Positions 33,245 through 45,753 of a stretch of 46,890 nucleotides of DNA are shown one piece after another. The notes beneath the pieces were generated by a model. The model was given only the letters and a program-made list of their open reading frames with translations. It had not been told where the DNA came from and ran no database searches. Positions within the stretch are counted from its first letter, which is position 1, and every line of letters starts with the position of its first letter. The translations under genes and the position numbers were made by a program. Source of the DNA: Alphaproteobacteria bacterium (GTDB taxonomy: Bacteria; Pseudomonadota; Alphaproteobacteria; UBA9655); NCBI GenBank assembly GCA_019749915.1, contig JAIEPE010000046.1, positions 1 to 46,890 on the forward strand, written 5' to 3'.

Positions 33245-33316
33245 AATTTTAAGGTCTTTATTAATTTAATTTCATTAAGCTTGCATTTTAACCTGATAAT
33301 AGATAACGGGTTTCGG

Positions 33317-35641
33317 ATGCAGAATAAAAAAACCGGTCTTACAACACAAGAAGCTCAGGAACGCTTACTACAACATGGGCCCAATCTTGTTGAAGAAGAA
33401 AAGAAACATAAGCTACTTTTATTTCTTGAAAAATTTTGGGCACCTGTCCCCTGGATGCTTGAAACGACCATTACTCTCCAATTTTTCTTAGGCAAATATG
33501 AGGAAGCCCTCATTATTTTGATCTTATTATTTTCCAATGCTACTTTAAGTTTTTTCCAAGAGGAACGTTCGAATAAAGCGATTGTCCTCCTCAAAAAGCA
33601 CTTAGCCATTAAATCACGGGTCTTAAGAGACTCAAAATGGAAAATGATTCCTGCAGAAGATTTAGTCCCAGGAGATATTGTTCATTTACGAATGGGAGAT
33701 ATCTCTCCAGCAGATATTCAGGTCTCTGATGGAAAGATCTCCCTAGATCAATCTGCCCTTACGGGAGAATCCTTACCCTTTGAATGTGGTGTCGGAAAAA
33801 GCTCCTATTCAGGCTCTATCGTTGTACAAGGAGAGGCCACAGGTGAAGTAACGGCAACGGGGGAGCAGACCTATTTTGGCAAAACAGTTAGCTTGCTACA
33901 AATATCTGAAACAAAAAGCCATATTAAGGATATTATTTTTAAAATTGTGAGATATCTTGTTACAATAGATATCTTCTTTGTTCTTCTTGTTTGTGGATAT
34001 GCGATTTTTATAAGCCACCCTTTCACGGAAATAATCCCCTTTGTCTTGATGCTCATTGTGGCATCTCTTCCTGTTGCTCTTCCCGCAACCTTTACCTTAG
34101 CAACAGCCATTGGAGCGCAACATCTAACAAAACGTGGGGTGCTTGTGACTCGTTTGTCTGCGATTGAAGAGGCAGCAACCATGGATATTCTCTGTCTTGA
34201 CAAGACAGGGACCATTACGCAAAATTCTCTTGAACTCGCAACGGTGAAGCCTTTTGCCTCCTTTCAGGAAGAGCGTTTGCTAGAATTGGCGGCCCTTGCA
34301 AGCCAGGAAGAAACCCAAGATCCAATAGACAAAGCCATTCTGGAGGCCGCTCAATTAAATAATTTTCTTAATTCAAAATCAGAGATTATTGAATTTATTC
34401 CTTTTGATCCTTCACTTAAAAGGACTGAAGCTACGTTCAAGGAAAAGGGACACAAGTACCGTGTTCTCAAGGGTGCTCCTCTTGTCATTAGTAAGCTCAC
34501 AGAAAAAAAACCAAATTTAAAGAAAGAGATCTCCCAATTAGCTGCAAAGGGTTATCGTATCCTTGCTGTCGGTGTGACAGGAGCAAATAAGAAAAGTTTA
34601 GAGCTGGCAGGACTTCTTGCCTTTTATGATCCTCCTCGAGAGGATTCTAAAACCATTCTCAAAACTTTAAAAAAGTTAGGTCTACGTATTCTTATGATCA
34701 CAGGGGATGGAATACAAACTGCTAAAACGATTGCAGCAGAAGTCGGCATTGGCAAGAGGGTTTGTTCTTCAGACATTATTCACAAAAACAAAGGTCACGC
34801 TCTCCTCGATTGTGATGTTTTTGCGGGGGTATTCCCAGAAGATAAATTTCAGCTTGTAAGGGATTTTCAGAAACTTGGGCATACGGTTGGAATGACTGGA
34901 GATGGCGTCAATGATGCGCCGGCCCTTAAACAAGCCGAAGTCGGTATTGCTGTTGCCAATGCCATGGACGTTGCAAAAAGTTCAGCTTCTATTGTTTTAA
35001 CCGAACCGGGGTTATCCGGCATCCTTTCCGCAATCAGAACAAGTCGGCGCATTTATCGTAGAATGCTGACCTACACACTCAACAAGGTCATGAAAAGTTT
35101 GGAAATCATCGTCTTTCTTAGCTTAGGCTTTATCTTGGCTGATGATTTGATCCTTACCCCGCTTCTCATGGTGATTCTGCTTTTTACAAACGATTTTGCA
35201 ACGATGGCCATTGCAACCGACAATGCCTTGGCCTCCCCTAAACCTGCCCGTTGGAAAATTGATAAACTGATGATGGCTGGTGGAGCGTTAGCGTTTCTGG
35301 TATTGATCTTTTCCTTCTCCGTCTTTCTTGTTGGGAAAGACATTCTGCTTCTTCCCTTGCCAGAGCTTCAAACCCTTGTCTTTTTGACCCTTGTGTTTAC
35401 GGGTCAAGGCAACATTTACCTTGTCAGAGAACGGAATCATTTTTGGAACTCTCGACCCTCAAATTGGCTTTTCTTTATCACTATTGCAGATATTTTGATT
35501 ATAAGTTTAATGGCGACCTTTGGGGTTCTTCTTACGCCTATAAGTCCACTCATCATTCTGATTCTTTTTATGTGCACGGCATTTTACCTCTTCATTATAG
35601 ATTTCCTGAAAATCCAAGTGTTTACCTTTCTAAATTTCTGA
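33317..35641 (+). CDS. P-type H+-ATPase (P3A, plasma-membrane type)
   Basis: A 774-residue P-type ATPase resembling yeast and plant plasma-membrane proton pumps. The actuator domain has SALTGESLPFE, the phosphorylation site is CLDKTGTITQN (Asp295), and the hinge is MTGDGVNDAPALKQAEVGIA. It has ten helices and an N-terminal cation-ATPase domain (TGLTTQEAQERLLQHGPNLV). No metal CPx motif is present, so heavy-metal export is unlikely; proton pumping is favoured, though magnesium-type members cannot be excluded. ATG 33317 is preferred over a TTG 36 bases upstream with no ribosome-binding site. It precedes cfa by 92 bases; both point to acid or membrane-stress protection. Confidence 0.87.
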   Translation: MQNKKTGLTTQEAQERLLQHGPNLVEEEKKHKLLLFLEKFWAPVPWMLETTITLQFFLGKYEEALIILILLFSNATLSFFQEERSNKAIVLLKKHLAIKSRVLRDSKWKMIPAEDLVPGDIVHLRMGDISPADIQVSDGKISLDQSALTGESLPFECGVGKSSYSGSIVVQGEATGEVTATGEQTYFGKTVSLLQISETKSHIKDIIFKIVRYLVTIDIFFVLLVCGYAIFISHPFTEIIPFVLMLIVASLPVALPATFTLATAIGAQHLTKRGVLVTRLSAIEEAATMDILCLDKTGTITQNSLELATVKPFASFQEERLLELAALASQEETQDPIDKAILEAAQLNNFLNSKSEIIEFIPFDPSLKRTEATFKEKGHKYRVLKGAPLVISKLTEKKPNLKKEISQLAAKGYRILAVGVTGANKKSLELAGLLAFYDPPREDSKTILKTLKKLGLRILMITGDGIQTAKTIAAEVGIGKRVCSSDIIHKNKGHALLDCDVFAGVFPEDKFQLVRDFQKLGHTVGMTGDGVNDAPALKQAEVGIAVANAMDVAKSSASIVLTEPGLSGILSAIRTSRRIYRRMLTYTLNKVMKSLEIIVFLSLGFILADDLILTPLLMVILLFTNDFATMAIATDNALASPKPARWKIDKLMMAGGALAFLVLIFSFSVFLVGKDILLLPLPELQTLVFLTLVFTGQGNIYLVRERNHFWNSRPSNWLFFITIADILIISLMATFGVLLTPISPLIILILFMCTAFYLFIIDFLKIQVFTFLNF

Positions 35642-35733
35642 CAAGCGGCTTGTGTCCAGCGTGATCCGCTTAATCAATTTTTAAGCAATTAATGGTTCAA
35701 TTATTTCCTAGAGATAACTTAGGGAGGAGGCCT

Positions 35734-36993
35734 ATGCTTTTTCATCATTTTTTGAAACAATTTGTAAAAGTAGGGACGTTGAATGTCATCGATACAAAAG
35801 GAAAAAATTATTCTTATTCTGCAACACCAACACCAGAAATTACGATTCAGATTCATTCTAAAAGTTTAGAAAATTGTTTGTGTTATTCTCCCATGCTCGC
35901 TTTAGGAGAAGGGTATATGGAAGGGACCCTCACCATTGAGAAGGGAGATATATATGACTTCCTTTCTTTTTGTGCTGTTAATCTCAGACAGGTCCATTTC
36001 CCTTTAGTACAAAAATTGACGAATCAATTATCGGCTTTCCGCCATCTTTTGCATGAAAAAAATCCTATCCATCGGTCTCATCAAAATGTGGCCCACCATT
36101 ATGATCTTTCGGAAGATTTGTATCGGCTCTTTTTGGATAAGGATATGCAATATTCTTGTGCCTATTTCACAAGCCTTGATGATGACCTTGAAACGGCACA
36201 GATCAATAAAAAACGTCACTTAGCCGCAAAACTTCAGCTAAAGCCTGGACAAAAAGTCCTTGATATTGGCAGTGGTTGGGGGGGCCTTGCCATAAGCTTG
36301 GCCAAAGAAGCGGATGTGGATGTCACGGGCCTTACCCTATCAGAAGAACAGCATCGCGTAGCAACAGAGCGGGTAAAAGCAGCTGGTCTCGAAAAACGTG
36401 TCCGCTTTCTCTTGCGGGATTATCGCGAGGAAACAGGAACCTATGACCGCATTGTTTCTGTTGGCATGTTCGAGCATGTTGGCGTCAAGCATTACAATGA
36501 ATTTTTCTCGCAAATTTCTTCTCTTTTAAGACCCGATGGTATTGCATTGTTGCATTCCATTGGATGTGCTACAGGTCCTTCAACGCCCAACTCCTGGCTT
36601 AATAAATATATTTTTCCAGGAGGGTATGCTCCAGCCCTTTCTGAAACTCTGAGTGCCCTTGAGCCTTCAAAACTCTATGTGACAGATATCGAAGTGCTTC
36701 ATCAGCATTATGCAGAAACTCTGCGCCATTGGCGACAACGTTTTCTCGCTCACCAAGACAAAGTAAAAAAAATTTGGGGGGAGAAATTTTTTCGCATGTG
36801 GGACTTTTACCTCGCCAGCTGTGAGGTCGCTTTCCGCAAACGGGGCTACATGGTTTTTCAAATTCAAATGATGCGGAATGCTGAGCTAACACCTCTCACA
36901 CGGGACTATATTTGGGAGAAAGAAGAATGGATGGCGCAAAAGAAAAATGTAAAATTCTCTGCCGTAAGTGGGAAGGCACACAATGACCTCTGA
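35734..36993 (+). CDS. cfa: Cyclopropane-fatty-acyl-phospholipid synthase family protein
   Basis: This 419-residue enzyme transfers a methylene group from S-adenosylmethionine to phospholipid acyl double bonds, making cyclopropane acids that stiffen membranes. The SAM-binding site is VLDIGSGWGGLAISLAKEA, and the other family motifs are GLTLSEEQ, SVGMFEHVG and HSIG. An N-terminal lipid-binding region of about 120 residues precedes it. ATG 35734 is chosen because GGGAGGAGG lies 3-11 bases upstream; an earlier ATG at 35692 would add fourteen non-homologous residues. The last eleven bases overlap the transporter gene, so it is in one operon with the next three genes. Confidence 0.9.
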   Translation: MLFHHFLKQFVKVGTLNVIDTKGKNYSYSATPTPEITIQIHSKSLENCLCYSPMLALGEGYMEGTLTIEKGDIYDFLSFCAVNLRQVHFPLVQKLTNQLSAFRHLLHEKNPIHRSHQNVAHHYDLSEDLYRLFLDKDMQYSCAYFTSLDDDLETAQINKKRHLAAKLQLKPGQKVLDIGSGWGGLAISLAKEADVDVTGLTLSEEQHRVATERVKAAGLEKRVRFLLRDYREETGTYDRIVSVGMFEHVGVKHYNEFFSQISSLLRPDGIALLHSIGCATGPSTPNSWLNKYIFPGGYAPALSETLSALEPSKLYVTDIEVLHQHYAETLRHWRQRFLAHQDKVKKIWGEKFFRMWDFYLASCEVAFRKRGYMVFQIQMMRNAELTPLTRDYIWEKEEWMAQKKNVKFSAVSGKAHNDL

Positions 36994-38200
36994 AACACTT
37001 ACCGCTGAAGATGTAACCATCCCTCAAGAAGGGAGCTATATCAAACGGGTTATACTGTCCTGTATGGTTGGAAATGCCCTCGAATGGTATGATTTTGCCC
37101 TATATGGGTATTTTGCAACGACCATCGGCTCCCTTTTCTTTCCAAAATTCAGCACTGTTGCTTCACTTTTAGCCACTTTTGGTATTTTCGCAGCAGGTTT
37201 TATTATGCGCCCCCTAGGAGGAGCTATTTTTGGTCATATAGGAGATAAAATTGGTCGTAAAAACGCGCTCCTGTGGTCAATCTATCTTATGGCTATTCCC
37301 ACGACTCTTATTTGCTTACTGCCCACCTATGAGCAGATAGGGTGGCTGGCACCCCTTCTTTTAACCTTTATTCGTTTAGCCCAAGGATTATCCATGGGTG
37401 GTGAGTTTACGGGATCCATGGTCTTTGTGGTCGAAAATGCCCAGCAGGGAAACCGGGGTCTTGATGGAAGTTGGGTCGTTTTTAGTCTGCTCATCGGGAT
37501 TTTGGTGGGCTCCGCAGTCGCAACGACGACCTGTTATCTGCTTTCTGAAGATTCACTGATGAGTTGGGGGTGGCGCATACCTTTTCTCATGAGTATGGTG
37601 GGTGGATTCATAGAATCGATTATGCGCCATACCTTGCGAGAGCCGGAAGAATTTACCCAAGCTAAAATTCATCACAAAGAACTCGCTGCGCCCGTTAAGA
37701 AGTCGTTCAAGCATCACGCCAAAACGATTGCTTATGTTGTTACCATCGAGCTTGCCCTTGCTATTAGCTTTTATCTCATCGTGACCTTTATTAACAACTT
37801 TCTGACCGCCTTTCTAGAAATGGATAAGGTCACAAGCCTCAGGATGACAAGTATCAGTATGATAGCCATGGGAATAGCTATTCTCTTTGGGGGGTGGCTT
37901 TCTGATAAAATCGGCCGCAAAGCGGTTCTTATTCCCAGTGGGCTGGGATTTGCCTTTTTTTCCTATCCGCTCTTCCTAGGCCTTGAAAGTAGCTTTGAAG
38001 GAGCCCTATTGGCTCAAATTGCTCTTTCCTTAATAATGGGCGTCTTCTTTGCCCCCTTTATTGCAACAAGTCTTATCCACCTAACAAACAATAATGCCGC
38101 ACCTGCTCTCTATTTAAGCGTGGCTTCAGTCATTTCTGTCATTGCTCTTTTCTTTATGAAAGATGGCTATCGGGAGAAAATTGAAGAGGCGTCTTCATGA
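36983..38200 (+). CDS. MFS transporter, metabolite:H+ symporter (MHS) family
   Basis: A 405-residue inner-membrane transporter of the MHS branch of the major facilitator superfamily (ProP, KgtP, ShiA relatives). Family signatures: GNALEWYDFALYGYFATTIG near the N-terminus, then GHIGDKIGRKNAL (loop 2-3 motif) and RLAQGLSMGGEFTGSMVFV. It has twelve predicted helices. These proteins import organic acids or osmolytes with protons. The substrate is unknown, but the next two genes (MmgE/PrpD and ComA-like) overlap it by four bases each and may use what it imports. ATG 36983 is preferred: GGGAAGG lies 6-12 bases upstream. Confidence 0.88.
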   Translation: MTSETLTAEDVTIPQEGSYIKRVILSCMVGNALEWYDFALYGYFATTIGSLFFPKFSTVASLLATFGIFAAGFIMRPLGGAIFGHIGDKIGRKNALLWSIYLMAIPTTLICLLPTYEQIGWLAPLLLTFIRLAQGLSMGGEFTGSMVFVVENAQQGNRGLDGSWVVFSLLIGILVGSAVATTTCYLLSEDSLMSWGWRIPFLMSMVGGFIESIMRHTLREPEEFTQAKIHHKELAAPVKKSFKHHAKTIAYVVTIELALAISFYLIVTFINNFLTAFLEMDKVTSLRMTSISMIAMGIAILFGGWLSDKIGRKAVLIPSGLGFAFFSYPLFLGLESSFEGALLAQIALSLIMGVFFAPFIATSLIHLTNNNAAPALYLSVASVISVIALFFMKDGYREKIEEASS

Positions 38201-39573
38201 CGGAAGTTCAAGAACTTGCTCAATTTGTCGTAACAAGAGATATAAATGACCTCTCTAAAGAAGTTATTGAGCAACTCAAAATTAGAATTCTCGACAGTTT
38301 AGGGTGCGCCATTGGCGCTCTTAAGGGAGAGCCCATTTGCTTGATCCGAGACCATATTGATGAGTTCGGGGGAAACCCCATAGCATGCCTTATCGGGGGT
38401 GGGAAAACGGCTCCTGATAGAGCTGCATTTTATAATGGTGCCTTGGTTCGATATTTGGATTTTATGGATAGCTATCTCGCTAAAGGCGAAACCTGCCACC
38501 CGAGCGATAACCTAGCACCCCTCTTAGCTGCAGCCGATTATGCCCATGTTGGAGGGAAGGAACTCCTCACTGCCTTAGCCATGGCTTACCAAATCCAATG
38601 TCGGCTTTGTGATGAAGCTCCCGTGCGTGCAAAAGGTTTTGATCATACCACCCAAGGGGCTTATGCCATCGCTGCAGGTGTGTCAAAAGTCTTACGCTTA
38701 GATCAGGAAAAAACAGCCAATGCTATTGCCATTAGTGGGACTTCCAATATTGCTCTTAGAGTTGCGCGTACAGGCTCTCTCTCCCATTGGAAGGGACTGG
38801 CCTATCCCAATACGGCTTACATTGCCACCCATGCTGCTTTCCTCGCTCGTCGTGGCATTACAGGTCCTCTTGAAGTCTTTGAAGGAAACAAGGGGTTTAA
38901 GGAAACCATCTCTGGGCCCTTTACAATTGATTGGCCTAAGGAAGATCTGGAAAGGGTGAACCGAACAATCGTCAAAAAATATAACGCCGAGATCCATTCC
39001 CAATCTGCGATTGAAGGCACCCTTGAATTAAGAGCCCAACATGGATTCAGTGGAAATGAAGTTGAAGCAGTGGAAATCGATATTTTCGACGTTGCGTATC
39101 ATATCATTGGAGGCGGTGAGGAAGGGGATAAGAAAAGCGTCCGTACAAAAGAAGAAGCGGATCATAGTCTTCCCTATATGGTGGCTGTGGCTCTTCTTGA
39201 TGGGGAACTTTTACCCCAACAATATGCGCCTCAGCGCATCAAAAAGGATGATGTGCAAAATCTGTTACAACGGGTTACGGTGAGAGAAAATCCTTCCCTC
39301 TCCGCAAGGTTTCCCAGTGAACTTCCTTGCAACGTAAAGATCCAGCTGAAAGATGGTCAAACCTTTAGAATTGAGAAAAAAGATTACGAAGGATTTTTTA
39401 CCCGCCCTTTTTCTTGGGAAGACATTACCAAAAAATTTCATCAACTCGCAGAGCCATTTGCCTCAAAAGAAATTCGCAATAAAATTGTACAAATTGTCCA
39501 TCATATAGAAACTGTAAAAATAGAAGATTTAACCAACCTTTTCAGCCAAATTAACCAGGAGAAAAAATCATGA
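38197..39573 (+). CDS. MmgE/PrpD family protein
   Basis: The 458-residue protein belongs to the MmgE/PrpD superfamily, which includes 2-methylcitrate dehydratase and cis-aconitate decarboxylase. Family hallmarks seen are ILDSLGCAIGAL, ALVRYLDFMDSYLAKGETCH followed by PSDNLAPLLAAADY, GFDHTTQGAYAIAAG, SHWKGLAYPNTAYIA, and KKYNAEIHSQSAIEG. These carry the conserved His, Lys and Tyr/Asp active-site positions. Which reaction it catalyses (dehydration, decarboxylation, isomerisation or another) cannot be read from the sequence. It starts inside the transporter gene (4-base overlap) and ends overlapping the ComA-like gene by 4 bases, implying tight coupling. No prpB, prpC or acnD is nearby, so the methylcitrate cycle is unlikely. 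Confidence 0.85.
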   Translation: MTEVQELAQFVVTRDINDLSKEVIEQLKIRILDSLGCAIGALKGEPICLIRDHIDEFGGNPIACLIGGGKTAPDRAAFYNGALVRYLDFMDSYLAKGETCHPSDNLAPLLAAADYAHVGGKELLTALAMAYQIQCRLCDEAPVRAKGFDHTTQGAYAIAAGVSKVLRLDQEKTANAIAISGTSNIALRVARTGSLSHWKGLAYPNTAYIATHAAFLARRGITGPLEVFEGNKGFKETISGPFTIDWPKEDLERVNRTIVKKYNAEIHSQSAIEGTLELRAQHGFSGNEVEAVEIDIFDVAYHIIGGGEEGDKKSVRTKEEADHSLPYMVAVALLDGELLPQQYAPQRIKKDDVQNLLQRVTVRENPSLSARFPSELPCNVKIQLKDGQTFRIEKKDYEGFFTRPFSWEDITKKFHQLAEPFASKEIRNKIVQIVHHIETVKIEDLTNLFSQINQEKKS

Positions 39574-40388
39574 GTGAACGTGCCTTTTCCTTTATACCAC
39601 TAAATTCCCGCCAAGGAAAACCCCGTACCCAAGGGGTGACGGAAATTCGTGGACCCTACTATTCCGTAATGGGAATCCGCTATCTCACAGATATTTTAGA
39701 AACCATGGGCAAATACGTTGATGGATTGAAATTTGCTGGTGGATCTTTTGCGCTCATGCCAAGAGATGAGGTTAAGAAGATGATCGACCTTGCCCATAAG
39801 TATGACGTGTATGTTTCAACAGGAGGGTGGATTGAACATATTATCAGACATAGACCAGAAGATGTTGAGAAATATATGAAGGAAGTCCACGCTCTTGGTT
39901 TTGATGTCATTGAAATCTCAGCAGGATTCATCAGCTTACCCGTGGATGATATGGTTCGCTTAGTTGAAAAAGCTCAAAAAATTGGCCTTAAAGCAAAGCC
40001 AGAAGTCGGCATCCAATTTGGAGCGGGAGGAGACACCCCTCCAGAAATCCTTGAAGCTGAAGGTACTCGAGACGTGCAATGGGCCATCAACCTTGCTCAA
40101 CGATGCCTCGATGCTGGAGCCTACATGATTATGATCGAATCGGAGGGTATTACGGAAGATGTAAAAGTCTGGAAAACGGATGTCGCTGCCAGGATTATCA
40201 ATAGCCTTGGCTTAGAAAAGGTCATGTTTGAGGCGGCAGATCCAAAGGTTTTTGAATGGTACATCAAGAACTACGGCCTAGATGTGAACCTTTTTGTTGA
40301 TCATAGCCAAATTGTCCAATTAGAATGCCTCCGCTCTGGCATTTGGGGGACAAAAAATACCTGGGGTCGAATTTGTTCCTATCGGTAA
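39570..40388 (+). CDS. Phosphosulfolactate synthase-like (ComA/HSA32 family) protein
   Basis: This 272-residue TIM-barrel protein is in the ComA family. Archaeal ComA adds sulfite to phosphoenolpyruvate, the first step of coenzyme M synthesis; plant relatives (HSA32) have other roles. Signatures: GKYVDGLKFAGGSFALMPRD, YVSTGGWIEHIIRHRPEDVE, KPEVGIQFGAGGDTPPEILE, MIMIESEGITEDVKVW and VDHSQIVQLECLRSGIWG. The barrel is complete. Coenzyme M biosynthesis genes (comBCDE) are not nearby, so the product is unlikely to be coenzyme M itself. It is four-base-overlapped with MmgE/PrpD. A C-C or C-S bond-forming step on an enol acid is the best guess. Confidence 0.83.
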   Translation: MSERAFSFIPLNSRQGKPRTQGVTEIRGPYYSVMGIRYLTDILETMGKYVDGLKFAGGSFALMPRDEVKKMIDLAHKYDVYVSTGGWIEHIIRHRPEDVEKYMKEVHALGFDVIEISAGFISLPVDDMVRLVEKAQKIGLKAKPEVGIQFGAGGDTPPEILEAEGTRDVQWAINLAQRCLDAGAYMIMIESEGITEDVKVWKTDVAARIINSLGLEKVMFEAADPKVFEWYIKNYGLDVNLFVDHSQIVQLECLRSGIWGTKNTWGRICSYR

Positions 40389-40411: not shown

Positions 40412-41641
40412 ATGACTATAACAACAGAAAAAATTTCTTTTCACGGGGCGCTTGGCAATACTCTATCTGCACGGCTAGATAGCCCTCAGGGAGAAATTAA
40501 GGCATATGCTCTTTTTGTTCATTGTTTTACCTGCTCAAAGGATTTTTTAGCAGCCAGCCATATTTCTTCTGCTCTTACGGAGAAAGGTATTGCTGTTTTG
40601 AGATTCGATTTTACAGGTCTAGGTAGCAGTGAGGGTGAATTTAGTAATACCAATTTTTCTTCAAATATCGAAGACATAAAAGCGGCTATAGATTTTTTAA
40701 AATCAAAAGATAAATCTCCTCAAATTTTAATTGGTCATAGTTTGGGAGGATCGGCTGTGCTTCGTGCTGCTGAATCCGTTCCAGATCTTAAGGCTCTCGT
40801 AACGATTAATGCACCTAGCGATCCAAGCCATCTCCGCCATTTGTTGAAAAACTCCCTTCCAGAGATTGAGGCACAAGGATATGCTAAGGTGGTTTTGGCT
40901 GGTCGAGAATTCCAGATACAAAAACAATTTATTGATGATTTGGAAAAACATAAGTCACTTTCCTATCTTAAAGACATTGGAGCGGCCCTCTTAATCTTTC
41001 ATAGTCCTCAAGATACAATTGTGGATGTGGATAATGCGAAAATGATTTTTACAGCTGCCCATCACCCAAAAAACTTTATTTCCTTCTATGAAGCGGATCA
41101 TCTGTTAACCCGACCTGCTGATGCTACTTATGTAGCCGATATCATCAAAAGTTGGGTAGACCGATATTTACCTGAAGAGAAAAAGTCAGGACCAAGCGAA
41201 AGAAAAAATAACGAAGTCATTGTCACCGAAATGGGAGATGGCAAATTTACTCAGCTTATTCAGGTTGGAGAACATACGTTAATGGCAGATGAGTCTCTAG
41301 AGATTGGGGGAAATAATAAAGGACCCAGTCCCTATGATTTCATTTTAGCAGGGCTTGGTGCTTGTACCTCCATGACGATAAGGATGTATGCTGATCGCAA
41401 AAAGATCCCTCTAGAAGGCATCAACGTGACCTTAGCTCATCAAAAAGTTTACAATGAAGATTTAACAAATTGTGTAGATAAAAATGAAAGATTGGATTTA
41501 ATTGAGCGTGTTCTCTTTTTAGAAGGAGACCTCACTTTTGAACAAAAAGAAGACCTGGTCCGAATTGCTGAAAAGTGTCCCGTTCATAAAACACTCACCC
41601 AATCTTCTATTATTAAAACAATGTTAAAGGTTGAACTTTGA
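40412..41641 (+). CDS. Alpha/beta hydrolase fused to an OsmC-like domain
   Basis: The 409-residue protein has two domains. Residues 1-250 are an alpha/beta hydrolase: nucleophile elbow GHSLGGSA, a PQDTIVD acid region and a His near EADHLL. Residues 265-409 are OsmC-like, with the catalytic cysteines of the family in LGAGTSMTIR-type context (here AGLGACTSMTIRMYADRKKI) and VRIAEKCPVHKTL. OsmC proteins reduce organic hydroperoxides. The fusion is a recognised architecture, found in several proteobacteria. It is 23 bases after the ComA-like gene, with its own start. It may repair oxidised or esterified lipids, but the substrate is unknown. Confidence 0.87.
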   Translation: MTITTEKISFHGALGNTLSARLDSPQGEIKAYALFVHCFTCSKDFLAASHISSALTEKGIAVLRFDFTGLGSSEGEFSNTNFSSNIEDIKAAIDFLKSKDKSPQILIGHSLGGSAVLRAAESVPDLKALVTINAPSDPSHLRHLLKNSLPEIEAQGYAKVVLAGREFQIQKQFIDDLEKHKSLSYLKDIGAALLIFHSPQDTIVDVDNAKMIFTAAHHPKNFISFYEADHLLTRPADATYVADIIKSWVDRYLPEEKKSGPSERKNNEVIVTEMGDGKFTQLIQVGEHTLMADESLEIGGNNKGPSPYDFILAGLGACTSMTIRMYADRKKIPLEGINVTLAHQKVYNEDLTNCVDKNERLDLIERVLFLEGDLTFEQKEDLVRIAEKCPVHKTLTQSSIIKTMLKVEL

Positions 41642-42126: not shown

Positions 42127-45100
42127 TCACAACGACATCCCACCTCGATCCATTTCTCTTATTTTTTGTTGCAGTTGCTTTTCTTGAGCGAGTTGTTTAA
42201 TAGTCTGGCTCATTTCGGGATCGATTTTTTGTATGTGTTCATACACTTCCTTGTTTTTGTAAAGAGATTTGCTGAGGTCGGCCCGCTCTTTCTCTAAGTC
42301 AGAATCGTATTTCTTCTCCAGCTCATAGTTAAGATCTTTGAACCGATAATAATGGGACAAACCGTTTTTAAGACTCTCTTGCCGTCTTTGCTCTTGTTGG
42401 GCTTGCAATTTAAGAGCTGCCTCTTTAGCTTGCAGGGCCTGCGCGTGAGCATCGTGTTTAGCCTTTTTGATGTCTTGGAGATCACATAAAAACTTTATAG
42501 TCTTATCGGGATCTTCAAAGGCAGCCTTGCGAGCGAGGTTCTTTGCTTTATCGGACATATAGCTTAAAAGTGGAGACTGGAGCGCCTGCTCAACTGTTTC
42601 CATCTTCTGCTCAAACACTTGTCTGTAAGGCTCGCTCTTTTCTTTCCAGTACTCAATGGAAGCAGCTTCTCCTTGAGTTTTGAGGCCTTTTGCATAGACC
42701 CGTTTGTAAAAGTCAGCCTCATGAAAGGCCGGATGTTTCATATCTCCCTGTACATCGTGGACGGTTTTGATCTCGGTACGTAGAGAAACAGGCCCCTTTT
42801 GAAGAATCTCCTGCGCCCTGGCTTCTTCTCGAACCGTTTCCGGCTTTAACAAAATAGACTTCTCTGAAGTTCGCCCTAGAAAATAATCGGCAACGTTTTT
42901 AAAGGCCTGTTTGGAGACGGCACCCATGGCATGAAGCTCATCCCCGAGACGAGTAAAGAGTTTCGTGAGAAGTCGGTCTTCCTCTTTCATAAGTTTAGCG
43001 AGAGAATTGGCATCCAAATAATCAGCTGCACCCAGTTTTTCCCCTGATTTAGAGAGAACAGATGGAAGTTTTTCGTCTCTCCAGAAGTCTAAGGTGCTGC
43101 CATAAACTTGTACAGAATCCCGGTGACGGGTCATGGCCACATAGGTCAGGTTTTGCGTCATCTCATGAGAAGCCAGAAGGAAACTTTTATCCACCGTTGT
43201 CCCTTGAGATTTATGAATAGTCACGGCCCATCCTTGATCAAAATAAGGATTGAGATTGGGCGCAAAGGAAACCTTTTGATCATCTGCGATCTTAACCTCA
43301 ATTTTTTGCGCATTAATCTCCGTAATAGTGCCGATGGTGCCATTCTTAACGCCAAGACCCGCATTGTTACGAGCAAAGACGAGCTTGTCTCCCTTTGAGA
43401 AAACCCGCTCTTCCTTAAAGATTTTCTTGCGGCCAAAATCGTCCTCCACCTCTCGGTGAATGGTGTGAGCAAAGTCTTTTTTATCAAGAACACCTACTTC
43501 CTTTAGGTAAGTGCGTGCCTGGACGTTAAGATCTCGCACATCCCGGTTACTGTAAGCCATCATGAGGAGGCTCTTCTCAGGAGAGTCTTGAAGATTTTGC
43601 TTCCAATCTTCAATCATGGCTGCTTTGGCACCGCTTCTGACCTCAATGGTTTGACCGGGAAGTTTCTCAAGACCTATAAGGTGACCAAGTCCCTTCTCCT
43701 TAAGAATGGAAGCAGCCTCATCATATTGCAACTTTTTAGTTTGTTTTTTGTTCACAAAAAGCCGTGCCATTTCCAGAGGGTCAATGTTTCGGGACTCAAG
43801 AACAGGCTTATACACCTCAGGGTTTGCTAAGATTTCTTTACCAGCTGTTTTTTGACACTCTTTCCATTTCAAAAACAGGTCGTAATCTTCATGCTGAGAA
43901 GCAAGAGAAGGCTCCGTAGGGTAACTACCCTTGACCTCTCGCATGATTTCCCGGAAGATCAGCCCTGACGCTCTTGCAGCCATCTCATAGCGAGTGACGA
44001 CGTCAGTAGGAATATGCTCATCTACAAGATGAACATGGCCTTTGTCCTGATAGGTCTGAATGGCTTTTTGTGATTCTTGTTGTCCAAATAAGACGGTCGC
44101 TTCTTTTTGCCAGTCTTCCTTTTGGCGGACGATTTCTTCAAGGCGAGAAACACCCACCCTTTCTGTAACTAAACGAAAAGCAGGTCCTGCTTCCACGGGC
44201 TGGAGCTGAGCCCCATCTCCCACCACAACGGCCTTAATCCCTAAGGTTTGAACAGCACCTAAAAATTTATCAAATCGCTCCACATCCACCATACCCGCTT
44301 CATCAAGGATAAAAATACTGCGCTCATTATACTGGCACCTTCCTTCCTCAAAGGACTTAAGAAACTTATGTAAGGTTTGAGATTTAATCCCACTGCCTTC
44401 AAGATTCTGCGCCGCTCTTCCCGTAGGCGCCAGGCCATACACCTTATAGCCAGCATCTTCCCAAATGTCGTGGCAGGCCTCCAAGGCCGTTGTTTTACCG
44501 GCGCCTGCATAGCCCACAATGCACTTGAGCTGCCCCTCATCCACCAAATGACGAATGGCCTGCTCTTGCCCCTCGCTCAGAGTATGACCTTCTTGGGCTA
44601 ATCCTGTCTTTAAACGCTCTAAGCCGTCTTCAAGAGAGGCGGAAGAAACCGAATGAGATTCATGACCCGCCAACATTTCAGCTGTTCCAACGAGCTTTTT
44701 TTCAGCTTTGAGCATGGTATGGGTGGTGTAGATTGCTTGCTCCCCATTGCCTTTTAACAAAATCAATTCTTTTGAATTCTGAAGTCGGGCATCTAACCTC
44801 TGGAAAAGAGTGCTATCATCAACGTACCGCCCCAAAATCTTCTGCACATCTCCCCACATAAAGGTCGCATGATGGCGGGTAACAATATCAAGGACTGTCT
44901 CTGGACGCCTCATAATCCTATAAAGATTACGAAGTTGAACTTCTCGAAAGGCTTGCGTTCGTTTTGTGGTAGGTGTTGATGCAACAAATCCCCCAATGTC
45001 TTCTGCATTCTCTTGATTCTTTGACAATGAACAACCTTCAATGCCGTCTGTCCGCTTTTCTTGCTCATTCACTCCTTTGCCCAATTTGACCTGAGGCTCA

Positions 45101-45753
45101 ATATCTAATCCCTGATCCTTATAGGACCGATGATCAAGGGTAATATCAAATCCATGCATTTTAAGATGAAAGCTGGCATATTGAGCCCATTGCTCGCGCC
45201 ACACTTCATGAACCTCCCGTGTATTCCAGTCGCGATTCTTTTTAGAGACGAGTCCTTGAGACGAGTTTCCTTCCACAAGTTCGCGCGTTAAAAAAAATGT
45301 GTGACAGTGGGGATTAAGTTCACCCGTTTCCTCACAGGTTTCTACATGAAAGCTTTGAATAGCGAGCATTCCTAAACCACAGAACTGATCTTGCACATAT
45401 TCTTGAGCCAAGGCCTTTCTTTGCTCATAGGTCAATTCCCGGGGAAGAGAAAACTCAATCTCACGATAAACTTGGGCATCAACGCGCTTTTCGGCAGCAT
45501 TGGCTATATTAGAAAGGAGCTGAATCCCTTTCTCGCGATCTGTTGAGACAAGCTGTTGAATTTCTTTGGCCCAGGCGGGCGCATTCTCAGGAAGCAAAAT
45601 CTGCACGTCTTGGACGGACTTATCCTGAAAATCAAAAACCTCGCCCGTATTCGGATCTGTAATCTGTATTCCTGAAATGTACGCAATGGTCTTTACAGGA
45701 TTGCCCCCGTTGCTGCGTCCAATCATGCGAGTGGTGTGGTGGTATATGGCCAT
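42127..45753 (-). CDS. traA: Ti-type conjugative relaxase/helicase TraA
   Basis: The 1208-residue protein joins an N-terminal MobA/MobL (MOBQ) relaxase to a RecD/TraI-like helicase. The likely catalytic Tyr25 is in VKTIAYISG, and the metal-binding histidines are in FHVE (His136) and NPHCHTFFL (His149, His151). The helicase has Walker A VGYAGAGKTT (about residues 411-420), Walker B FILDEAGMVD and later IHKSQGTT and VAMTRHRDSVQVYG. A basic coiled tail of about 250 residues follows. It nicks oriT and unwinds the transferred strand. It is divergent from traC and traD across an oriT-like gap, the arrangement in Ti plasmids. No clear Shine-Dalgarno precedes the ATG. Confidence 0.9.
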   Translation of the reverse strand: MAIYHHTTRMIGRSNGGNPVKTIAYISGIQITDPNTGEVFDFQDKSVQDVQILLPENAPAWAKEIQQLVSTDREKGIQLLSNIANAAEKRVDAQVYREIEFSLPRELTYEQRKALAQEYVQDQFCGLGMLAIQSFHVETCEETGELNPHCHTFFLTRELVEGNSSQGLVSKKNRDWNTREVHEVWREQWAQYASFHLKMHGFDITLDHRSYKDQGLDIEPQVKLGKGVNEQEKRTDGIEGCSLSKNQENAEDIGGFVASTPTTKRTQAFREVQLRNLYRIMRRPETVLDIVTRHHATFMWGDVQKILGRYVDDSTLFQRLDARLQNSKELILLKGNGEQAIYTTHTMLKAEKKLVGTAEMLAGHESHSVSSASLEDGLERLKTGLAQEGHTLSEGQEQAIRHLVDEGQLKCIVGYAGAGKTTALEACHDIWEDAGYKVYGLAPTGRAAQNLEGSGIKSQTLHKFLKSFEEGRCQYNERSIFILDEAGMVDVERFDKFLGAVQTLGIKAVVVGDGAQLQPVEAGPAFRLVTERVGVSRLEEIVRQKEDWQKEATVLFGQQESQKAIQTYQDKGHVHLVDEHIPTDVVTRYEMAARASGLIFREIMREVKGSYPTEPSLASQHEDYDLFLKWKECQKTAGKEILANPEVYKPVLESRNIDPLEMARLFVNKKQTKKLQYDEAASILKEKGLGHLIGLEKLPGQTIEVRSGAKAAMIEDWKQNLQDSPEKSLLMMAYSNRDVRDLNVQARTYLKEVGVLDKKDFAHTIHREVEDDFGRKKIFKEERVFSKGDKLVFARNNAGLGVKNGTIGTITEINAQKIEVKIADDQKVSFAPNLNPYFDQGWAVTIHKSQGTTVDKSFLLASHEMTQNLTYVAMTRHRDSVQVYGSTLDFWRDEKLPSVLSKSGEKLGAADYLDANSLAKLMKEEDRLLTKLFTRLGDELHAMGAVSKQAFKNVADYFLGRTSEKSILLKPETVREEARAQEILQKGPVSLRTEIKTVHDVQGDMKHPAFHEADFYKRVYAKGLKTQGEAASIEYWKEKSEPYRQVFEQKMETVEQALQSPLLSYMSDKAKNLARKAAFEDPDKTIKFLCDLQDIKKAKHDAHAQALQAKEAALKLQAQQEQRRQESLKNGLSHYYRFKDLNYELEKKYDSDLEKERADLSKSLYKNKEVYEHIQKIDPEMSQTIKQLAQEKQLQQKIREMDRGGMSL

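Follow-up and report, generated by a model that had tools for sequence, protein, structure and literature searches.

The window considered here is a stretch of 46,890 nucleotides (contig JAIEPE010000046.1 of assembly GCA_019749915.1) from an alphaproteobacterium of the UBA9655 lineage, and it carries four overlapping genes, the last two of which encode an MmgE/PrpD-family enzyme and a ComA-like TIM-barrel enzyme and are the subject of this analysis. All four lie on the plus strand and are real, as a first-pass annotation of the same DNA had claimed, since their open reading frames (ORFs) and Pfam families are confirmed and the overlaps are indeed 11 bases (cfa/MHS), 4 bases (MHS/MmgE) and 4 bases (MmgE/ComA-like):

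35692..36993, plus strand: cfa, cyclopropane fatty acid synthase (Pfam CMAS, 307 bits)
36983..38200, plus strand: MHS-family symporter (Pfam Sugar_tr/MFS_1), ATG start
38197..39573, plus strand: MmgE/PrpD-family enzyme, 458 aa (MmgE_PrpD_N PF03972, 247 bits; MmgE_PrpD_C PF19305, 160 bits)
39570..40388, plus strand: ComA-like TIM-barrel enzyme, 272 aa (Pfam ComA PF02679, 283 bits, cut-off 25.2)

An in-frame later start of cfa at 35734 is the one used in the first-pass annotation, an in-frame GTG at 36968 is an alternative start for the symporter, and an AGGAG resembling a ribosome-binding site stands upstream of the start of the ComA-like gene. At the stricter level of NCBIfam none of the four proteins reaches its nearest functional model: Cfa scores 548 bits against the Brucella-type Cfa model (cut-off 600), the symporter 333 bits against TIGR00883 (cut-off 443), the MmgE protein 117-181 bits against the PrpD models (cut-offs 458-950) and the ComA-like protein 103 bits against the archaeal equivalog model arch_ComA, TIGR03849 (cut-off 280).

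The MmgE and ComA-like genes form a stand-alone two-gene module that is conserved across bacterial phyla and haloarchaea, independently of cfa and the symporter gene. Relatives of the ComA-like protein with 62-72% identity are found in Chloroflexota, Actinomycetota, Acidobacteriota, Nitrospirota, deltaproteobacterial lineages, Bacillota, Balneolota, Verrucomicrobiota, Planctomycetota, Chlamydiota and Hyphomicrobiales, and plasmid-borne ones (53-69%) in Methylosinus, Methylocystis, Salinibacter and haloarchaea; most of them are adjoined by an MmgE gene whose product is mostly 55-66% identical to that of the window. The MmgE gene lies upstream on the same strand in 69 of 89 loci, at a distance of -4 to 915 bp (median 62 bp for the 65 full-length pairs). 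Among 350 Chloroflexota genomes, 23 have both genes, two the ComA-like gene alone, four the MmgE gene alone and 321 neither (25 and 27 genomes in total for the ComA-like and the MmgE gene, respectively), which gives a Fisher probability of 8.5e-30 that ignores phylogeny, the genomes not being independent. Across loci, the identity of one protein tracks that of the other (Mantel r 0.81, 0 of 2000 permutations), which is what joint inheritance would produce. No third conserved partner came out of clustering or of a Pfam scan of 129 neighbouring ORFs, no Pfam family being present in more than four of them. The association singled out in the first-pass annotation is therefore not rare elsewhere but recurs very widely, and the pair is very probably a functional unit. 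A ComA-like protein conserved together with a PrpD-like dehydratase makes a compact module of two enzymes that lends itself to experiment. The literature search found no paper that joins phosphosulfolactate (PSL) synthase with MmgE or describes the pair, in line with the earlier statement that no described pathway has this set of genes. Carriage by viruses was considered and rejected, as IMG/VR yielded no relative.

Databases call these ComA-like proteins "phosphosulfolactate synthase", a name that would wrongly ascribe a metabolism of sulfonates or coenzyme M to many bacteria and haloarchaea. The window protein does share the Pfam family and the fold of ComA from M. jannaschii (1qwg), from B. 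subtilis (1u83) and from coenzyme M clusters: its predicted structure (pLDDT 83) aligns with 1qwg over 241 residues at 2.5 A with a Z score of 27.2 (plasmid-record sequences were excluded from the structure-model alignments). The barrel lysine and glutamates are shared as well, with K54, E115, E145, E190 and E221 invariant and common to ComA, and N240 also invariant. The identity to ComA, however, is only 22-28%, and the partner is an MmgE/PrpD enzyme instead of ComB or the XcbC lyase. In the alignment, the archaeal, spore and coenzyme-M PSL synthases share GGTL-like, SDG/SNG and E-x-RESG motifs (RESG is present in 1qwg, 1u83, L148, L149, L151, L177 and L092), whereas GGW/GGF, SAG/SSG and ESEGITE stand at these sites in the window clade. 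In a tree of 54 sequences, one branch with support of 99/98 parts the RESG-type synthases from all MmgE-linked homologues. The same division is seen in gene neighbourhoods: across 156 homologue loci, an MmgE/PrpD gene lies within 3 kb of none of the 38 RESG-bearing ComA homologues and of 85 of the 118 RESG-less ones (Fisher 6e-17, a value inflated by related sequences and a few overlapping loci). Because RESG is absent and the protein falls outside the RESG clade, it is, by motif and by clade, not a PSL synthase, and with the PSL motifs lost, phosphoenolpyruvate (PEP) and sulfite may both be dispensable as substrates. The label "sulfite-to-enol-acid synthase" given earlier to this protein is thus doubtful. 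Synthesis of coenzyme M or sulfolactate was considered and rejected, as such clusters have an RESG-type ComA with ComB or fumarate-lyase partners.

Elsewhere in the family, Bacillota carry a ComA-family gene above the cut-off in 136 of 398 sampled genomes, and the 30 best-scoring loci are all of the RESG type, several with a ComB-like neighbour. On a plasmid of Legionella lytica (L092), a ComA domain is part of a gene of 2.9 kb, and a 2-phosphosulfolactate phosphatase gene comes next, which makes this an RESG-type sulfolactate locus.

The MmgE protein belongs to a subfamily specific to the pair. Its active-site pattern is of the PrpD type (D88, H101, D149-H150, K199, K260, E265), and H101, D149-H150, K199, K260 and E265 match 2-methylcitrate dehydratase PrpD (1szq) at the mapped columns, although the identity to solved PrpD and to solved cis-aconitate decarboxylase (CAD, also ACOD1/IRG1) is only 25-26% and the window has no PrpB or PrpC partner. 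The best fold matches are CAD (Z 36.2), iminodisuccinate epimerase (35.1) and PrpD (34.1), all members of one family, and the fold alone does not discriminate between them. In the active site, the base equivalent to CAD H103 is kept as H101, while a glutamate, as in PrpD, stands where mammalian CAD has H277, and the column of Y318 is mismatched; both H277 and Y318 are important in human CAD (PMC7347537). Itaconate formation is consequently not favoured, and its mammalian type is rejected on this mismatch. Since the IRG1 of B. subtilis also lacks equivalents of H277 and Y318, decarboxylation by the window enzyme is still conceivable.

The partnership with MmgE extends beyond the close relatives, as MmgE genes also stand beside distant RESG-less ComA homologues (about 26-34% identity), in settings that add to a tricarboxylate context. 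In three such loci (L174, L179 and L180) the homologue is accompanied by MmgE/PrpD genes in tandem, three or four of them, and by a TctC receptor; another (L184) has MmgE, PrpF and isocitrate/isopropylmalate-dehydrogenase-family genes, a further one (L191) MmgE and a CaiB CoA-transferase, and one in Bradyrhizobium (L150) an MmgE-PrpF combination. L174 also contains a TauE/SafE gene, and L179 and L180 an ornithine cyclodeaminase/mu-crystallin gene. The MmgE proteins at these distant loci are of other subfamilies (20-27% identity), and the partnership therefore spans subfamilies on both sides. Together with the PrpD-type active site of MmgE and with the Nitrospirae and Chloroflexota loci described below, where prpB and prpD or a PrpB-like lyase gene stand close by, these settings hint at tricarboxylates, and we consider it reasonably likely that the substrate of the pair is a tricarboxylate-type acid.

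For the chemistry itself we tentatively favour a two-step mechanism, in which we infer the substrate class, the reaction, the order of the steps and the physiological role. MmgE would work in the manner of 2-methylcitrate dehydratase, dehydrating or hydrating a citrate- or methylcitrate-like hydroxy-polycarboxylate, with an alpha,beta-unsaturated acid as its product, and the ComA-like barrel would act next on this acid or its enolate, instead of on PEP and sulfite. The second step might be a conjugate addition or elimination, with water or sulfite as the nucleophile, or a lyase reaction with C-C cleavage. Several points weigh against this mechanism. A PrpD-like signature is compatible with more than one substrate, since MmgE/PrpD enzymes include epimerases and decarboxylases. 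The host genome, which is 97% complete, contains a single citrate synthase and no protein of the PEP mutase/methylisocitrate-lyase family (no PF13714 match), so that no classical methylcitrate cycle is evident, in line with the earlier remark that its genes are not nearby; methylcitrate would for this reason need to be imported, yet the adjacent importer appears to be broken by a deletion described below. Furthermore, some RESG-less homologues have no MmgE gene nearby, and 11 of 14 genomes with an MmgE-free ComA-like locus gave no close MmgE orthologue, some of them being incomplete metagenome-assembled genomes, so that the ComA-like enzyme can work without MmgE or with a true PrpD.

The last of these settings is found in Nitrospirae, where three loci (L034, L067 and L074) have a ComA-like gene of the same clade directly 5' of prpB and then prpD; in L034 the prpB product scores 488 bits (methylisocitrate lyase cut-off 353) and the prpD product 846 bits (2-methylcitrate dehydratase cut-off 575). 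These loci bear on an alternative that we regard as unlikely, namely that the ComA-like enzyme replaces methylisocitrate lyase and cleaves the MmgE product to pyruvate- and succinate-like acids, or catalyses the reverse condensation. With a true prpB next to it, the Nitrospirae enzyme is not a simple substitute there. What speaks for the replacement is that the MmgE subfamily of the pair occurs in four Chloroflexota genomes that lack a ComA-like gene; three of the four have next to it a PrpB-like lyase gene, an HMG-CoA-lyase-like gene or both, the PrpB-like lyase being a member of the ICL/PEP-mutase superfamily (298 bits to TIGR02317, cut-off 354). The ComA-like fold also resembles pyruvate-enolate barrels, but such TIM-barrel likeness is generic. 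Chloroflexota clusters of this kind (L141, L142 and L144) combine MmgE with PrpB-like and HMG-CoA-lyase-like genes, the first two with CoA-transferase genes in addition, and appear to be dicarboxylate or CoA-ester catabolic operons.

A sulfonate route, with the ComA-like enzyme adding sulfite to the unsaturated polycarboxylate made by MmgE or removing it from a sulfo-polycarboxylate, is a modified form of the idea in the first-pass annotation and is rather unlikely. Sulfite addition to an enol acid is the known chemistry of the ComA family, and the distant RESG-less homologue of L174 adjoins a TauE/SafE-family protein together with three MmgE genes and the TctC receptor. Yet the RESG and SDG/SNG motifs of the PSL synthases are absent, TauE/SafE occurs in this one locus only and its family carries many solutes, and no gene family for sulfite or sulfonate is recurrent among the neighbours of the pair.

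A protective or regulatory role is improbable: the ComA-like protein would be a stress protein, non-catalytic or detoxifying, in the way of plant HSA32, and the pair would remove a toxic unsaturated acid. The lead in this direction, and no more than a lead, is a provisional Arabidopsis HSA32 sequence, some letters of which could be wrong. Its identity to the window protein is about 45% across 260 residues, and to 1qwg and 1u83 about 22-23%. The provisional sequence shares the stretches RGPYYSV and VDHSQI-LECLR with the window protein and differs at the equivalents of E145, Q149, E190 and E192, and HSA32 is eukaryotic and has no MmgE operon. By the title of a 2006 paper of Liu et al. (cited in PMC5415614), HSA32, named as PSL-synthase-related, is reportedly not involved in sulfolipid synthesis. 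As a heat-memory protein of plants, HSA32 stabilises HSP101 (PMC11840417). Stress genes do lie near several pairs (an H+-ATPase, cfa and OsmC here; Dps, DsrE, DUF488 and Usp elsewhere), but none of the stress families is frequent next to the pair, and the invariant K54, E115, E145, E190, E221 and N240 argue for catalysis. If the provisional sequence is right, the clade of the pair is a prokaryotic relative of the plant heat-memory protein. A wider proposal, which we hold to be doubtful, is that the Pfam ComA family splits into true PSL synthases and an RESG-less half whose members, in bacteria, archaea and, as HSA32, plants, take part with MmgE/PrpD enzymes in a polycarboxylate reaction not yet described; were this true, the MmgE partner would give a first hint of the substrate behind HSA32 and heat-stress memory, and the pair would provide a concrete substrate class for this protein, to which to our knowledge no enzymatic activity has been assigned.

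Returning to the two-gene module at its own locus, the genes in front of it have a different history. Cfa homologues with 60-74% identity are found in several congeners, and the host genome itself encodes another Cfa with 70% identity. The MHS family is present in many copies in each genome sampled from the genus (18 matches in the host genome), the nearest congener copies being 78-80% identical to that of the window. In a congener (G002), the nearest homologues of Cfa and of the symporter are on different contigs, and in the compared pair loci neither gene was found beside the pair at high identity. Both cfa and the symporter are native to the genus and lie outside the conserved module, cfa, of a kind that much of the genus has, being an operon neighbour only. 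Aligned against full-length copies from congeners (six, each of 435 aa), the window symporter shows an in-frame loss of 34 residues (102 bp) between "FFAP" and "APFIAT". Since this loss spans the conserved stretch ELFPxxVRYSGLS, the window copy is probably non-functional and would not transport. The symporters are strongly expanded in the genus, each genome having about 4 to 19 matches, and several have in-frame stop codons. A single pathway or complex of all four genes, proposed earlier, is not borne out: the overlaps of 11, 4 and 4 bases suggest that one acid is taken up and processed by the symporter, MmgE and the ComA-like enzyme, with Cfa in the complex, but this is very improbable with a broken symporter, with cfa and MHS not found at high identity beside other pairs and with their nearest G002 homologues on separate contigs.

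The pair itself, by contrast with these native genes, is read as acquired by horizontal transfer and set behind cfa and the broken symporter gene, because the ComA-like gene is absent from all 14 congeners and from the rest of the sampled class (among 385 genomes searched, the window's own genome of 2.1 Mb is the sole match) and the protein groups with Hyphomicrobiales sequences in the tree (support 100/96). The base composition does not point to a foreign source (44.4% GC; the window as a whole has 42.1%). Two further genes flank the overlapping set:

40412..41641, plus strand: fused alpha/beta hydrolase-OsmC protein (Pfam Hydrolase_4 and OsmC)
33281..35641, plus strand: plasma-membrane proton-efflux P-type ATPase (NCBIfam TIGR01647, 737 bits, cut-off 615.5)

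The hydrolase-OsmC gene begins 23 bp 3' of the ComA-like gene and is possibly the last member of the operon, though it is not conserved with the pair; the ATPase gene ends about 50 bp 5' of cfa and is a neighbour only. About 0.5 kb past the putative operon, a large protein encoded at 42127-45753 on the minus strand resembles, by eye, a TraA-type relaxase/helicase, and its gene may mark the boundary of a mobile element.

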